Assembly (NCBI RefSeq): GCF_030269645.1
Contig: NZ_BSTR01000002.1
Coordinates: forward strand, 186,001 to 250,000
DNA length: 64,000 nucleotides
Origin: Actinokineospora sp. NBRC 105648
GTDB taxonomy: Bacteria; Actinomycetota; Actinomycetes; Mycobacteriales; Pseudonocardiaceae
Direction of reading: 5' to 3'
Numbering within the stretch: the stretch's first letter is position 1; the number at the start of each line of letters is the position of its first letter. Made by a program: the position numbers and the translations under genes. The notes under the pieces are model-generated. The model ran no database searches. It saw nothing but the letters and a program-made list of their open reading frames with translations, and was not told the origin of the DNA. Positions 39,897 through 45,178 of this stretch are shown here, one piece after another.

Positions 39897-40886
39897 CTAG
39901 CTGGTGATGTCCTTGGTGCGGAACCGCCGCGCGGCCAGCAGCCCGAACACCGCCGCGTAGGTGACCGCCGAGAACGCGCCCCTGGTCATGTTCGACCAGT
40001 CGATGTCGGTGGAGATCAGGTCCGACCAGGCGAAGCTGAAGTGCGTCGGCAGGTAGTCCCGCAGGCCACCCAGCGCGGTGATCTGGTCGAGGATCTGCGA
40101 CAGGATCGCCACCAGCACCGTGCCGCCGACCGCGCCGAGCGGCGCGTCGGTGGTGACCGAGAGGAAGATCGCCAGCCCGGCCACCCACAGCAGGTTGACC
40201 GAGATGTAGAGGACCGCGAAGAGCATCGCCAGCAGCGAGTCGGAGAACTCGATCGCGTCACCGGTCGGGCTCACCGCCTCGCCCGCGCCGTAGAACACGA
40301 CCCCCACCACCAGGGCCACGGCGGGCAAGAGCGCCAGGGCGAACAGGGACAGCAGGCCCGAGGTGAGCGCCTTCTGCCGCAACAGCCTCCCGCGCGGTAC
40401 CGGCATCGCGAGCAGGTACTTCAGGCTCGACCAGGACGCCTCCGAGGCGATCGTGTCGCCGAAGAACAGCGCCACGATCATCGGCAGCAGGAAGCTGCCC
40501 GCCGCGAACAGCACGAACACCACGAAGTTCGGCGCGCTCGCGGTCGCCAGGTCGACGAACCCGCCGGACCGGCGGCTGTTGTCGCTGGACCCGAACTCGA
40601 AGGCCGCCCACAGGATGAACGGCAGCAGCACCAGGAACCCGAGCAGCAGCTGGGTCCGCCGCCTGCGCAGCTGGCGCACCAGCTCCACCCGCAGCGGCAG
40701 CGTGCGCCGCTGGCGGAACCCGGACACCGAGCCGTCGGCGTCGTACCCGGTGTCCTCCCGGTTGGCCGCGAGCTCCATCTCGGCGATGGCCGCCGGGTCG
40801 GTGTGCACGGTGCTGACCGACTCGCCCGGCTTGAGCGGCTGACCGGTCACGACGGCTCCCTGCCTCTTGTGCCCGTTCTCGCTCAC
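39897..40886 (-). CDS. ABC-2 type transporter permease
   Basis: 329 residues with about six TM helices after a cytoplasmic N-terminus of about 75 residues that ends in RRTLPLRVELVRQL. The layout of ABC-2 permeases is clear, and the gene overlaps the stop of the ATPase gene (GTGA), so both parts are made together. An Asp/Glu-rich loop lies between helices. Substrate unknown. Confidence 0.88.
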   Translation of the reverse strand: MSENGHKRQGAVVTGQPLKPGESVSTVHTDPAAIAEMELAANREDTGYDADGSVSGFRQRRTLPLRVELVRQLRRRRTQLLLGFLVLLPFILWAAFEFGSSDNSRRSGGFVDLATASAPNFVVFVLFAAGSFLLPMIVALFFGDTIASEASWSSLKYLLAMPVPRGRLLRQKALTSGLLSLFALALLPAVALVVGVVFYGAGEAVSPTGDAIEFSDSLLAMLFAVLYISVNLLWVAGLAIFLSVTTDAPLGAVGGTVLVAILSQILDQITALGGLRDYLPTHFSFAWSDLISTDIDWSNMTRGAFSAVTYAAVFGLLAARRFRTKDITS

Positions 40887-43771
40887 GCGGAGGGCTCCTC
40901 TCCGACGAGTTGGAGGAACGCGTCTTCCAGGCGCCTGCGCGGCCCGGCCTGTTCCACGGCCACACCCGCGCGCACCAGCACGGTGAGCGCCGCCGAGCGC
41001 GGCACCCCGTCCAGGTCGGCGTGCACGAGGTCGCCCTCCACGCTCACCGCCCGCACACCGGTCACCCCGTGCAGCGCCTCGGCCGCCGCCACCGGGTCGT
41101 CCACCCGGAAGGTCGCCTCGCCGCCACCGGCGACGATGTCGTCCACCGCGCCCTCGGCGACGAGCCTGCCGCGGTGCATGACCACCACGTGGTCGCAGGT
41201 CTGCTCGACCTCGGCCAGCAGGTGGCTCGACACCACGACCGTGCGCCCGGTGGCCGCGTAGCGGCGCAGCACCTCGCGCATCTGGTGGATCTGCGGCGGG
41301 TCGAGCCCGTTGGTCGGCTCGTCGAGCACCATCAGGTCCGGGAAGCCGAGCATCGCCTGGGCGATCGCCAGCCGCTGCCGCATGCCCTGGCTGTAGGTGC
41401 GCACCTTGCGCTCCACGGCCGCGCCCAGCCCGGCGATCTCCAGCGCCTCGTCGAAGTGCGCGCGCTCGCGGGGCCGCCCGGTGGCGTCCCAGTAGAGCTC
41501 CAGGTTGGCCCGGCCGGACAGGTGCGGCAGGAAGCCCGCGCCCTCGACGAACGAGCCGATCCGGGACAGCACCGGCGCGCCGGCGCGGATCCGGTGCCCG
41601 AACACCCGGATCTGGCCCTCGGTCGGCTGGATGAGGCCCATCAGCATCCGCAGCGTGGTGGTCTTGCCCGCGCCGTTGGGCCCGAGCAGGCCGAGCACCT
41701 GGCCGCGCCCGACGCGGAAGGACAGGTCGTTGACCGCCTTGAGCCCGCCCGGGTAGGACTTCGACAGGTTCTCGATCACCAGCGGCACCTCGGCCAGCGC
41801 CGGGTCCGCGTCGTCCTGGCGCCTGCGGCGCAGCGCGCCCCAGAGGACCGCCAGGGCCACCAGACCAAGGACCACCGCGATGCCGACCAGCGGCGCCAGC
41901 GGCGGCCCGGTGCTCGACCGGGTGCCCGGCACGACCGGCACCGACAGCGGGCTGCCCCCGGCGAGGGAGATCTTGTAGGCCGCCGCCTGGGTGGGCGTCG
42001 CGTACGCCTGGTCGGTGGTCGAGACCACCAGCTCCACCCGGTGGTCGGCCTCGATCGGCCGGACGATCCCGGGCAGCGCCACGGTGAGTTCCACCGCGCT
42101 GCCGTCGGCCGGGAGCGCGGGAGTGCGCAGCGCGGACACCGCCGACCCGGGCAACGTGCGCACGCCGTCCGGCCCGACGTCGTAGAGCTTGGCGAAGAGC
42201 ACCGCGCCGTCCGGGGCGGCCCCCTGCGCGCTCGCCACCCGCAGCCGCGCCGTGCTCGCGCCCGCGATGAGCAGCTGACCGGTCATCGTCGGGCTGCTGA
42301 ACCGCGCGGCCTGGCCGGGCAGGTCGATCGAGATGCGGCCCGCCAGCCGGGCCGAACCGCTGATCACCGAGCCGAGCCCGGGCATGCTGCTGATCGAGGC
42401 CGGGTTGCCGCCGGGCGGGTTGACCACCGTCTGCTCACCGCCGGTGAGCGCCAGGGGCCGCCGCTCGGTCGCGGCACCACCGCTGAGACCTGGGTAGGCG
42501 CCGGTGCTGACGGTGCGCACCGAAGGCGCGCCCTGGGCCCGCAGCGCCCCCTGCACGGCGTAGGTGAACCCGGCCCGCGTCGCGCCCCGGCGCTCCGGGT
42601 CGAGCGTGTCGCGGAACCAGTCGGCGATCTCGCCGCGCAGCTCCGGGCCGGGCTTGCCACCGTCGTGGCCGCCGGTGTACCAGACGACCTTGACCTTTCC
42701 GCCCGCCGCGCTGATCTGCCGCGCGTTGGCGTCGGCCTGGTCCAGGCCGAAGAGCGTGTCCTGCTCACCCTGCACGAGCATCGTCGGCTGGGTGATCTTT
42801 CCGGTCACCGACGCCGGCGACACCCGGCGCAGCAGGTCCGCGGTCGCCTGGTCGGCGCGCCCGGTGGTGGCCACCTGCGAGTAGGCGCGGCAGACCTCGG
42901 CGGTGAACCGGCCGCACGGGTCGCCGCTCGCCTGCGGCCTGCCCCCGCTACCCGCGCCGGAACCGCCCGCGGCTCCGGTGTCCACCGCGGTCCCGCCGGT
43001 CGCGCCCGCGCTCGAGTCGTCCTCGGAGCCGGGTTCGGTCGCGTCGCCGGTCGGGTTCGCCAACCCGGCCGCGCCCATGCCCGCGGCGAAGAAGATGCCC
43101 GCCCACGACCGCTTGAACACCCCGTCCTGGGCGTACGGGTTGGGCGCCGCCGTGCCGGGCGCCGTGTCACCGGCCGCGGTGCTCGGGGCCGCCGAGTTCG
43201 GGATCAGCGCCTGGCCCAGGTCGTTGTAGGTGATCACCGGGGCGAGCGCGTCGACCCGCTTGTCGGTGCCCGCGAGCAGCAGCGACAGCGCGCCGCCGTA
43301 CGAGCCGCCGGTCACTCCCACCCGGGGGTCGCCGGGTCCGTCGAGGGCGACCTCGGGCCGGGTGGCGAGCCAGTCGACCAGCGCGCGGGCGTCGGCCACC
43401 TCGAAGTCCGGGTCGTTCAGCGAGATCTTGCCCTCGCTGCGGCCGAACCCGCGCGCGGACCAGGCCAGTGCCACGAAACCGCGTTGGGCCAGCTCACGGG
43501 CGTCGGAGTCGACGCTCTCCTTGCTCCCGCCGAACCCGTGCGCCACCAGCACCGCGGGCGCGGGGGTCCGCTCCGGCAGGTACAGGGTGGTGTCGACCTT
43601 GATGGGCTGGTCGCGGCCGGGGCCGCTGAGCAGGTCGAGGAAGGCGTCGGAACTGGTGACCCGGGGCGGCTCGGAACCGCTGTTGAGCCAGGTCAGACCA
43701 GCGGCCGCGACGGCCACCACGACCAGCGCGGTGACGACCTGGCGCGGTCGGGGTCTTGGGATCGAGGGCAC
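40883..43771 (-). CDS. Exported alpha/beta-hydrolase fused to an ABC transporter ATPase
   Basis: 962 residues. An N-terminal TM helix (about 12-30) is followed by an exported S15/X-Pro-dipeptidyl-peptidase-like hydrolase with VAHGFGGSKES, nucleophile GGSYGGAL and His in TGGHDGGKPG, a low-complexity Gly/Ser/Ala insert and a C-terminal beta domain. After a second TM helix (about 630-655) comes a full ABC ATPase: GPNGAGKTT, YSQGMRQR, LMVLDEPTNGLD, VSSHLLAEV. One chain therefore works on both sides of the membrane. GTG at 43771 is 6 nt after TACGGT; an upstream start at 43828 is unlikely. Confidence 0.88.
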   Translation of the reverse strand: MPSIPRPRPRQVVTALVVVAVAAAGLTWLNSGSEPPRVTSSDAFLDLLSGPGRDQPIKVDTTLYLPERTPAPAVLVAHGFGGSKESVDSDARELAQRGFVALAWSARGFGRSEGKISLNDPDFEVADARALVDWLATRPEVALDGPGDPRVGVTGGSYGGALSLLLAGTDKRVDALAPVITYNDLGQALIPNSAAPSTAAGDTAPGTAAPNPYAQDGVFKRSWAGIFFAAGMGAAGLANPTGDATEPGSEDDSSAGATGGTAVDTGAAGGSGAGSGGRPQASGDPCGRFTAEVCRAYSQVATTGRADQATADLLRRVSPASVTGKITQPTMLVQGEQDTLFGLDQADANARQISAAGGKVKVVWYTGGHDGGKPGPELRGEIADWFRDTLDPERRGATRAGFTYAVQGALRAQGAPSVRTVSTGAYPGLSGGAATERRPLALTGGEQTVVNPPGGNPASISSMPGLGSVISGSARLAGRISIDLPGQAARFSSPTMTGQLLIAGASTARLRVASAQGAAPDGAVLFAKLYDVGPDGVRTLPGSAVSALRTPALPADGSAVELTVALPGIVRPIEADHRVELVVSTTDQAYATPTQAAAYKISLAGGSPLSVPVVPGTRSSTGPPLAPLVGIAVVLGLVALAVLWGALRRRRQDDADPALAEVPLVIENLSKSYPGGLKAVNDLSFRVGRGQVLGLLGPNGAGKTTTLRMLMGLIQPTEGQIRVFGHRIRAGAPVLSRIGSFVEGAGFLPHLSGRANLELYWDATGRPRERAHFDEALEIAGLGAAVERKVRTYSQGMRQRLAIAQAMLGFPDLMVLDEPTNGLDPPQIHQMREVLRRYAATGRTVVVSSHLLAEVEQTCDHVVVMHRGRLVAEGAVDDIVAGGGEATFRVDDPVAAAEALHGVTGVRAVSVEGDLVHADLDGVPRSAALTVLVRAGVAVEQAGPRRRLEDAFLQLVGEEPSA

Positions 43772-44012
43772 ACCTGGACCGTATTGGAGACTTCCTGAGA
43801 GTGCTCCCAGTACCACCGGCAGTACCACCGGCCTGCCCCTGACGGGTGATGTCGGCTACACCGTCGCCGCTGGTCACGACGTGTCCAGGAACTGTCCCCC
43901 GCAGGTCAGGACCGCCGGGTGGGCGAGAGTCCGGCCAGGTCCGGACCGGTCCACCGAGGCCCCCGACTGGTGCCCGGCGGCCGGACAGGGAAGAATCGGA
44001 CAAAGAACATGT

Positions 44013-44135
44013 CGGAGGGGAGTATTCCTTCGCACCGGTGTCGTCAGCACGGACCCCCGGGTCCCGGGGCCGGTGGCCGAGCGCAGCCCGGCGGAAGAGA
44101 CCTCCGGTCGTCGGCGCTTGTCCGTACACCGGAGG
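44013..44135 (+). promoter_or_regulatory. yybP-ykoY (Mn2+) riboswitch controlling terC
   Basis: The P1 stem pairs CGGAGG (44013-44018) with CCTCCG (44101-44106). The conserved L1 GGAGTA follows the 5' strand and AGAGA precedes the 3' strand, as in yybP-ykoY RNAs. The same 3' strand, CCTCCGGT (44101-44108), can instead pair with ACCGGAGG (44128-44135), which contains the Shine-Dalgarno of terC 8 nt before the ATG. Mn2+ binding would stabilise P1 and free the ribosome site, making a translational ON switch. TerC genes are a classic target. The interior (44025-44095) is GC-rich and not fully modelled. Confidence 0.75.
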
Positions 44136-44143
44136 TCTGATCA

Positions 44144-45178
44144 ATGGTTGTCCCCGCCTGGGTCTGGTTCGCCACGATCGGCGGACTGATCGCGCTGCTC
44201 GCGATCGATCTGTTCATCGTGGACCGCAAGCCGCACGAGGTCACCGTCGGCGAGGCGGGCCGCTGGGTGGCCTTCTACATCGGCTGCGCGGTCGTCTTCG
44301 GCGGTGCGATCTGGGCGTTCTCCGGCGGGACCTACGCGGGTGAGTTCTTCGCCGGCTACATCACCGAGTACTCGCTCTCGGTCGACAACCTGTTCATCTT
44401 CCTGATCATCATGTCCGCGTTCTCGGTGCCCAAGATCCACCAGCACAAGGTGCTGCTGATCGGCATCGTGCTGGCGCTGGTCATGCGCGGGGCGTTCATC
44501 GCCGTCGGCGCGGTGGCGATCGCCAAGTTCAGCTGGGTCTTCTACCTGTTCGGCCTCTTCCTCATCTACACCGCCTGGAACCTGTCCCGGCAGGGCCTGG
44601 GCGAGGACGAGGAGTACGAGGAGAACGCGCTGACCAGGGTCGCCCGCAAGGTCTTCCCGGTCACCGACACCTACCACGGCGCCAACTCGTTCGTCCGGAT
44701 CGACGGCAAGCGGTTCGTCACCCCGATGTTCATCGTGATGATCGCGATCGGCACCGCGGACCTGCTGTTCGCTGTGGACTCGATCCCGGCGATCTTCGGC
44801 CTGACCAAGGAGCCGTTCCTGGTCTTCTCGGCCAACGCCTTCGCCCTGATGGGGCTGCGCCAGCTCTACTTCCTGCTCGGCGGGCTGCTCAGGAGGCTGG
44901 TGTACCTCTCGGTCGGCCTGGCGGTCATCCTGGCCTTCATCGGCGTCAAGCTGATCCTGGAGGCGCTGCACACCAACGCGCTCTCGTTCCTCAACGGCGG
45001 TGAGCCCTTCGGCGTCTGGGTGCCCAACATCGTCGTCTCGCTCACCGTGATCGTCGGCGTACTGGCCATCACCACCATCGCCAGCCTGCTCAAGTCCAAG
45101 CGGGACGCCGCCGCCGAGGGCCCGTCGGTGGTCGACGAGCCGCTCGAGTCGGGTGAACCGGTCGAGCACGGGCGCTGA
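44144..45178 (+). CDS. TerC family metal-ion membrane protein
   Basis: 344 residues, about nine TM helices. TerC signatures are the acidic TM motifs YSLSVDNLFIF and ADLLFAVDSIPA, thought to carry metal ions. TerC/Alx-type proteins export Mn2+ or help metalate secreted enzymes. The upstream yybP-ykoY riboswitch supports a manganese role here. The tail is Glu/Pro-rich and cytoplasmic. The ATG at 44144 follows GGAGG inside the switch. Confidence 0.93.
   Translation: MVVPAWVWFATIGGLIALLAIDLFIVDRKPHEVTVGEAGRWVAFYIGCAVVFGGAIWAFSGGTYAGEFFAGYITEYSLSVDNLFIFLIIMSAFSVPKIHQHKVLLIGIVLALVMRGAFIAVGAVAIAKFSWVFYLFGLFLIYTAWNLSRQGLGEDEEYEENALTRVARKVFPVTDTYHGANSFVRIDGKRFVTPMFIVMIAIGTADLLFAVDSIPAIFGLTKEPFLVFSANAFALMGLRQLYFLLGGLLRRLVYLSVGLAVILAFIGVKLILEALHTNALSFLNGGEPFGVWVPNIVVSLTVIVGVLAITTIASLLKSKRDAAAEGPSVVDEPLESGEPVEHGR

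Follow-up and report, generated by a model that had tools for sequence, protein, structure and literature searches.

The terC Leader

The window analyzed here is a stretch of 64,000 nucleotides (nt) from Actinokineospora sp. NBRC 105648 (contig NZ_BSTR01000002.1, positions 186,001 to 250,000), and all coordinates below are those of the window, on the forward (+) strand unless marked otherwise. A conserved structured leader occupies 44009–44143, flanked on one side by a divergent open reading frame (ORF) starting at 43828 (−) and on the other by terC (44144–45178), identified from the ORF list and Pfam as a gene of the TerC family (PF03741). The terC product is 37% identical to Escherichia coli Alx over 321 aligned columns and its nearest named relatives are from Actinokineospora; no relative was found by sequence in the PDB at E 0.001. 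The Shine-Dalgarno sequence (SD) of terC, GGAGG, is evident at 44131–44135, 8 nt before the ATG. We propose that the leader is an alx-like Mn2+ riboswitch of the yybP-ykoY class, lacking the P2 hairpin, that would turn on translation of terC, a reading to which we give a probability of about 0.8.

A preliminary description of this DNA, made from the letters alone, had pointed to a leader with two mutually exclusive pairings, and this observation is confirmed. All motifs it quoted lie where it had placed them, and CGGAGG (44013–44018), which contains the SD core letters GGAGG, forms a real inverted repeat of 6 base pairs (bp) with CCTCCG (44101–44106); these are the 5′ and 3′ strands of helix P1.1. 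Inverted repeats, shared-strand covariation and folding all mark the 3′ strand as the switch strand, serving both P1.1 and as anti-SD. Its second pairing, with the SD segment, is also real but longer than the 8 bp first described: it comprises 11 bp, AGACCUCCGGU (44098–44108) with ACCGGAGGUCU (44128–44138). The resulting OFF hairpin (44098–44138, arms AGACCTCCGGT and ACCGGAGGTCT) is backed by inverted repeat, folding and shuffles. The 6-bp P1.1 pairing alone is not counted as beyond chance. The 11-bp pairing is beyond chance: an inverted repeat of at least 11 arose in 1 of 300 dinucleotide shuffles of 44009–44143, and 0 of 2000 shuffles of 44000–44124 contained 11 bases complementary to the SD segment (longest 9). 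Single-sequence folding was unexceptional (z −1.58, with 10 of 200 shuffles equally good), and the support for the predicted leader structure is comparative.

Conservation and Covariation of the Aptamer

We compared 110 terC leaders (the window and 109 relatives from two overlapping source sets), 97 of which carry the frame GGGGAG(T/C)A...GA(G/A)ACC. A covariance model built from 43 actinobacterial terC leaders only, here referred to as R1, matched the window at 44009–44110 with 95.8 bits (genome-wide E 6e-19, the window being one of its 43 rows). Among the 13 leaders lacking the frame, R1 matched at the expected place in L076 and L121 and had no match in ten, L106 reaching only 15.8 bits (E 0.27).

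Covariation was counted over 33 pairs in an alignment (A1) of these 43 leaders, chosen as less similar to one another from those with the motif GGGGAG(T/C)A. In A1, 92.6% of cells were paired and both-side changes occurred in 22 of the 33 pairs. Cells with both-side changes numbered 165 against a shuffled mean of 49.6, a value that none of 500 shuffles reached, and fell to 37 or fewer when the partner was slid by 1–3 columns. RNAalifold on its own recovered P1.2, P3.1 and P4, with P1.1 in a slipped register. Helices P1, P3 and P4, closing a multi-way junction, are thus present by covariation and by de novo consensus.

In the window, P1.1 is followed by the 5′ side of loop L1 (GGAGTA, 44019–44024), opposite 44097–44100 and without variation in A1, whose 43 leaders were all selected by GGGGAG(T/C)A; the L1 motif as a whole (GGGGAGUA, 44017–44024, opposite the GA-rich 3′ side at 44097–44100) is kept in the same motif-picked leaders. 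The P1.2 5′ strand TTCC (44025–44028) pairs with 44093–44096, with both-side changes in three of four pairs, and the alignment and covariation count place its 3′ strand GGAA together with the L1 3′ side GAGA at 44093–44100. A 4-nt linker (44029–44032 in A1) occupies the site at which four-way-junction members have P2, which is absent. The P3.1 5′ strand (44033–44043) pairs with 44065–44075, with one G-G mismatch in the window; both-side changes were found in 7 of 11 pairs, and 97.5% of cells were paired in A1. L3, UCAGCAC (44044–44050), is 7 nt long in A1, like the loops given in PMC6754395, and A44046 is the putative Mn2+-contacting adenosine. Two hairpins complete the aptamer, P3.2 (44051–44064, pairing 44051–44055 with 44060–44064; 81.4% of cells paired in A1) and P4 (44076–44092, pairing 44076–44079 with 44089–44092), the latter with both-side changes in 7 of 7 aligned pairs and 89.6% of cells paired.

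A Strand Shared by Two Pairings

Elements picked by motif numbered 202, reduced to 201 after L097 was dropped (the wrong GAGACC had been taken) and to 196 unique elements after removal of duplicates; the set includes the window (L130), E. coli alx (L163), a gdt1 leader (L131) and loci of the type described by Rfam family RF00080, and its motif picking fixes two P1.1 pairs. In each element, the 8 bases that begin the P1.1 3′ strand were scored against their best downstream segment, with G-U counted as 0.5. The mean score was 7.26 (n = 196), compared with 6.73 when swapped between leaders (300 swaps, maximum 6.80) and 5.65 with shuffled downstream regions, and 158 of the 196 elements reached at least 7 of 8. 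In the 50 elements with a strand other than CCUCCG, the downstream score was 6.54 versus 6.12 (maximum 6.34) and the P1.1 score 5.05 of 6 versus 4.57 (maximum 4.84).

A CCUU strand is present in 25 elements. The matching P1.1 base was A in 24 of them, and downstream it was A in 14 and a wobbling G in 6, with no good partner in 5. A full 6-bp downstream partner was present in 11 of the 25, including L160, which is without a matching P1.1 strand. Both partners follow the strand as GAAGG/CCUUCGG/CCGAAGG in L141, L173, L207, L239 and L247 and as CAAGG/CCUUGUG/CACAAGG in L215, L238 and L248. The ribosome site of several CCUU elements is AAGGAG, of which the strand covers the AAGG part. It is this shared-strand covariation that best supports selection for both of the exclusive pairings. 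The competition between P1.1 and the SD pairing, claimed earlier from one sequence, is borne out in most leaders examined, in which the strand is shared and covaries with both partners. Sequence comparison shows the aptamer fold, the shared CCUCC strand and the SD-burying hairpin and, in part of the phylum, co-variation of the strand with both partners.

Folding Energetics and Accessibility of the Shine-Dalgarno Sequence

The energies come from a shorter transcript whose aptamer core was fixed in the two states alike. For the window, the ensemble without forced P1.1 was lower by 4.8 kcal/mol, favoring the SD hairpin (median of the 43 leaders, 5.5), a gap that metal binding, together with P1.1 folding early, could bridge. 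The SD was paired by the aptamer strand in the ligand-free fold of the window and of most relatives, less clearly in six Pseudonocardia leaders. Across the 43 leaders the median unpaired fraction of the SD was 0.001 in the free state and 0.42 with P1.1 forced, and the gain in the ON state exceeded 0.3 in 24. Extending the transcript by 24 coding bases widened the gap (−86.8 kcal/mol for the free ensemble, −66.2 kcal/mol when the aptamer was forced), and the SD then paired with coding sequence.

Assignment to the yybP-ykoY Class

The preliminary description had set a search with RF00080 beforehand as a possible refutation of its yybP-ykoY assignment. With Rfam 15, RF00080 gave no match in the window, either at the gathering cut-off or to E 10. 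Nor was there any match above the cut-off in the organism's own genome; across the order, 101 genomes likewise had none, although 16 had weaker matches. The same library was tried on E. coli K-12, whose alx and mntP are both named as Mn-sensing riboswitches (PMC9603457): alx (L163) was not matched to E 0.5, and mntP (L162) scored 41.6, under the gathering score of 45. Because these known members also fail, we take the miss as a limit of the model and not as a defining feature of the leader, and an absent RF00080 match should not be read as an absent switch.

R1 found E. coli alx with 38.8 bits (E 2.3e-8, 4.5 kb searched) and gave no match to E. coli mntP at E 10. Five loci (L003–L006 and L019) were matched by both R1 and RF00080, the latter below its cut-off. 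The 7-nt L3, with consensus UCANYAC, is in register, in its length and third-position adenosine, with UCA41AUUC of the Mn2+-bound Lactococcus lactis RNA and ACA48UACU of Xanthomonas oryzae (PMC6754395). P2, the mark of the four-way-junction form, is replaced in the window leader by the short linker. We file the leader as a P2-less subtype because P2 is not universal: alx is without it, and a three-way-junction member, Streptococcus mgtA, has been described (PMC9495176), so that the absence of P2 alone is not new. The earlier interpretation is thus refined in two respects, the lack of detection by RF00080 of Rfam 15 and the absence of P2 as in alx. Its assignment to the Mn2+-sensing yybP-ykoY class is supported by aptamer anatomy, covariation, the cross-match to alx and the gene partners, and we conclude from these comparisons that the leader probably contains an alx-type, P2-less yybP-ykoY aptamer.

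Some further matches were set aside. The RF00080 match on contig C56 of the same genome (L001, 15.3 bits), where R1 had none, was judged to be chance, and matches to Atu_Ti3, SorX and MIR856 were far below their own cut-offs, MIR856 only tracing the SD hairpin. As a separate observation, the RF00080-like leaders L003, L004, L005, L006 and L019, from relatives of the same order, precede sodium/calcium-exchanger genes (called by Pfam PF01699 for L004 and L019, by tblastn for L005 and L006, and by eye only for L003).

Proposed Mechanism and Alternatives

From these data we infer Mn2+ binding, the ON logic and translation as the controlled step. Mn2+ would dock L1 on L3 and hold P1.1 closed, and closed P1.1 would keep CCUCCGGU off the SD, leaving terC ON. 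P1.1 could fold while the SD strand is still untranscribed, and the SD strand, once present, would compete for the same bases; at low Mn2+ this last-transcribed strand would pull CCUCCGGU from P1.1 to form the 11-bp hairpin, which is more stable, turning terC OFF. TerC, once made, may then handle or export surplus Mn2+.

Several results weigh against this account, among them the lack of an RF00080 match in the window and of any above its cut-off in the order, and the failure of R1 to find mntP, given above. P1.1 is weakly informative in A1, with its three inner pairs invariant and both-side changes in only 3 cells; the L1 letters and two of the P1.1 pairs follow from the motif filters; and the elements are related, so the counts are not independent. 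In the window, the SD was unpaired at 0.00 in the free state and at only 0.07 (7%) with P1.1 forced, since in the predicted ON fold it pairs into a weak alternative hairpin with the bases directly preceding it. Nineteen of the 43 leaders did not show an ON gain above 0.3, and in the six Pseudonocardia leaders (L065, L066, L069, L070, L072 and L073) the SD was already 0.20–0.72 unpaired in the OFF state. A scan for sigma-70 promoters found none recognizable, and R1 had no match in 120 of 296 genomes sampled over the class.

On a side point, the P1.1 3′ strand CCUCGGG of four of these Pseudonocardia leaders (L065, L066, L069 and L073) pairs with a segment containing CCCGAG just upstream of the SD; the SD itself is not part of the hairpin, which makes this platform unlike that of the window.

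Control could instead be mainly transcriptional with the same Mn2+ aptamer, if at low Mn2+ the hairpin, or Rho acting on the untranslated leader, ended the transcript and burial of the SD only uncoupled translation. Other yybP-ykoY members act on transcription (PMC6754395), and a reference with a title beginning 'Rho and riboswitch' is cited in PMC13274385. We consider this unlikely: no U-tract terminator was found in 43820–44250, which makes intrinsic termination improbable, and the 3′ arm of the hairpin carries the SD 8 nt before the ATG, such a partner being kept in most elements examined. The Rho study reportedly concerns mntP. To a variant of the yybP-ykoY fold responding chiefly to another signal, such as Ca2+ or alkaline pH as for alx, we give a similarly low likelihood. 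Here L3 is UCANYAC and not ACAUACU, alx was first described as pH-responsive (PMC3874183), and the Streptococcus mgtA member also binds Ca2+ (PMC9495176); against this, the length of L3 and the place of its adenosine match the Mn2+-bound L. lactis loop, and the downstream gene families are tied to Mn2+ export in PMC13274385.

That there is no switch at all, the hairpin blocking the SD constitutively and the P1-like pairing being due to chance, would fit the unexceptional folding z and a free fold that buries the SD completely. The comparative data argue strongly against it and make it highly improbable in our view, as the entire aptamer is conserved and covarying and R1 matches both the window, one of its own rows, and, independently, alx. 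The Mn2+-dependent translational switch is the preferred reading.

Distribution and Relation to Known Systems

At E 0.001, R1 had matches in 55 genomes of a phylum-wide sample of 296 and in 176 of a class-wide sample of 296; the two samples overlap, and the filter used for large samples loses weak matches. Not counting the window, 66 phylum matches were listed, and the downstream genes of 29 were examined. The gene after the match encoded TerC at 18, a P-type ATPase at 7 (one Pfam-tested, six called by blastp to that one) and GDT1 at 1, together 26 of 29; of the remaining three, L134 is at a contig edge and L151 and L153 have no downstream gene call. These are families linked to Mn2+ homeostasis. 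In L108 (Blastococcus sp.), a leader lacking the conserved frame, the R1 match (144–246) precedes another TerC ORF about 1.25 kb upstream of the query TerC gene, so that two TerC genes stand close together with the switch before the first.

Among known systems, the E. coli alx leader (PRE-alx) is alike in its TerC-family gene, its L1 GGGGAGUA, its L3 UCAUUAC, its GAGACC and the absence of P2 in R1's alignment, and its P1 3′ strand AGACCUUGCC has a possible downstream partner in GGCGAGGUCU. However, the alx SD lies about 55 nt beyond the hairpin that this strand makes, whereas the strand of the window covers the SD directly. The published alx model is kinetic, opposing hairpins C and D to S and C/D with pausing of RNA polymerase (PMC3874183), and the path in the window looks shorter. 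Canonical members with P2 (L. lactis yoaB, X. oryzae yebN, E. coli mntP; RF00080) share the L1 and L3 cores, P1, P3 and P4, and genes of Mn2+ export. The window differs from them in its three-way junction, its L3 UCANYAC and the lack of an RF00080 match, and mntP in turn has no R1 match. The Mn2+/Ca2+ riboswitch of Streptococcus mgtA differs in controlling a P-type ATPase, and its summary speaks of transcription (PMC9495176).

Switches of the yybP-ykoY class before terC are already known. The terC leader cg2157 of Corynebacterium glutamicum was placed under RF00080 with 49.13 bits (Rfam of that time) and has an observed transcription start (PMC3890552); as an actinobacterial terC leader of the same class it is likened to the window by description only. 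No account of the expression platform of an actinomycete terC leader was found in titles and abstract openings, mostly of open-access papers, a result of little weight. The leader of the window combines a clean shared-strand platform with a broad distribution. The result is a widespread and experimentally tractable set of putative actinobacterial Mn2+ switches passed over by RF00080 of Rfam 15, and its natural compensatory variants (GGAGG/CCUCC, GAAGG/CCUUC and CAAGG/CCUUG) could be used to test a shared-strand SD toggle.

A Second Leader Before gdt1

Outside the window, the same genome has a second yybP-ykoY-like leader, this one containing P2, before a GDT1-family gene (PF01169; L131 1501–1623, C63:32338–32460). 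Its L3 is ACAUACU, and R1 gave only 26.9 bits (E 0.034 genome-wide). GGGGAGTA...GAGACC was found upstream in 10 of 19 gdt1 loci of the family, the organism's own included. In the nine gdt1 leaders compared, a putative relay strand can pair both with the P1.1 3′ strand CCUCCGGCCG(G/A)G (10.5–11 of 13) and with a downstream arm adjoining the SD (9–11.5 of 13). A G-to-A change in L264 and L266 is matched by the relay. This relay-type platform is more unusual than the terC switch.

Taken together, we see about an even chance that actinomycetes have a large, Rfam-invisible, alx-like Mn2+ branch in which the closing helix holds a copy of the SD and one CCUCC strand toggles between this mimic and the real SD without a relay, next to a second, three-strand relay Mn2+ switch before gdt1. 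In that case, metal handling by TerC and export by GDT1 may be tuned to different Mn2+ levels.

On the other side of the terC leader, the divergent ORF (40883–43828, −) encodes 981 amino acids, and its translation reads, by eye only, as an X-Pro dipeptidyl-peptidase-like domain with an ABC ATPase domain after it.
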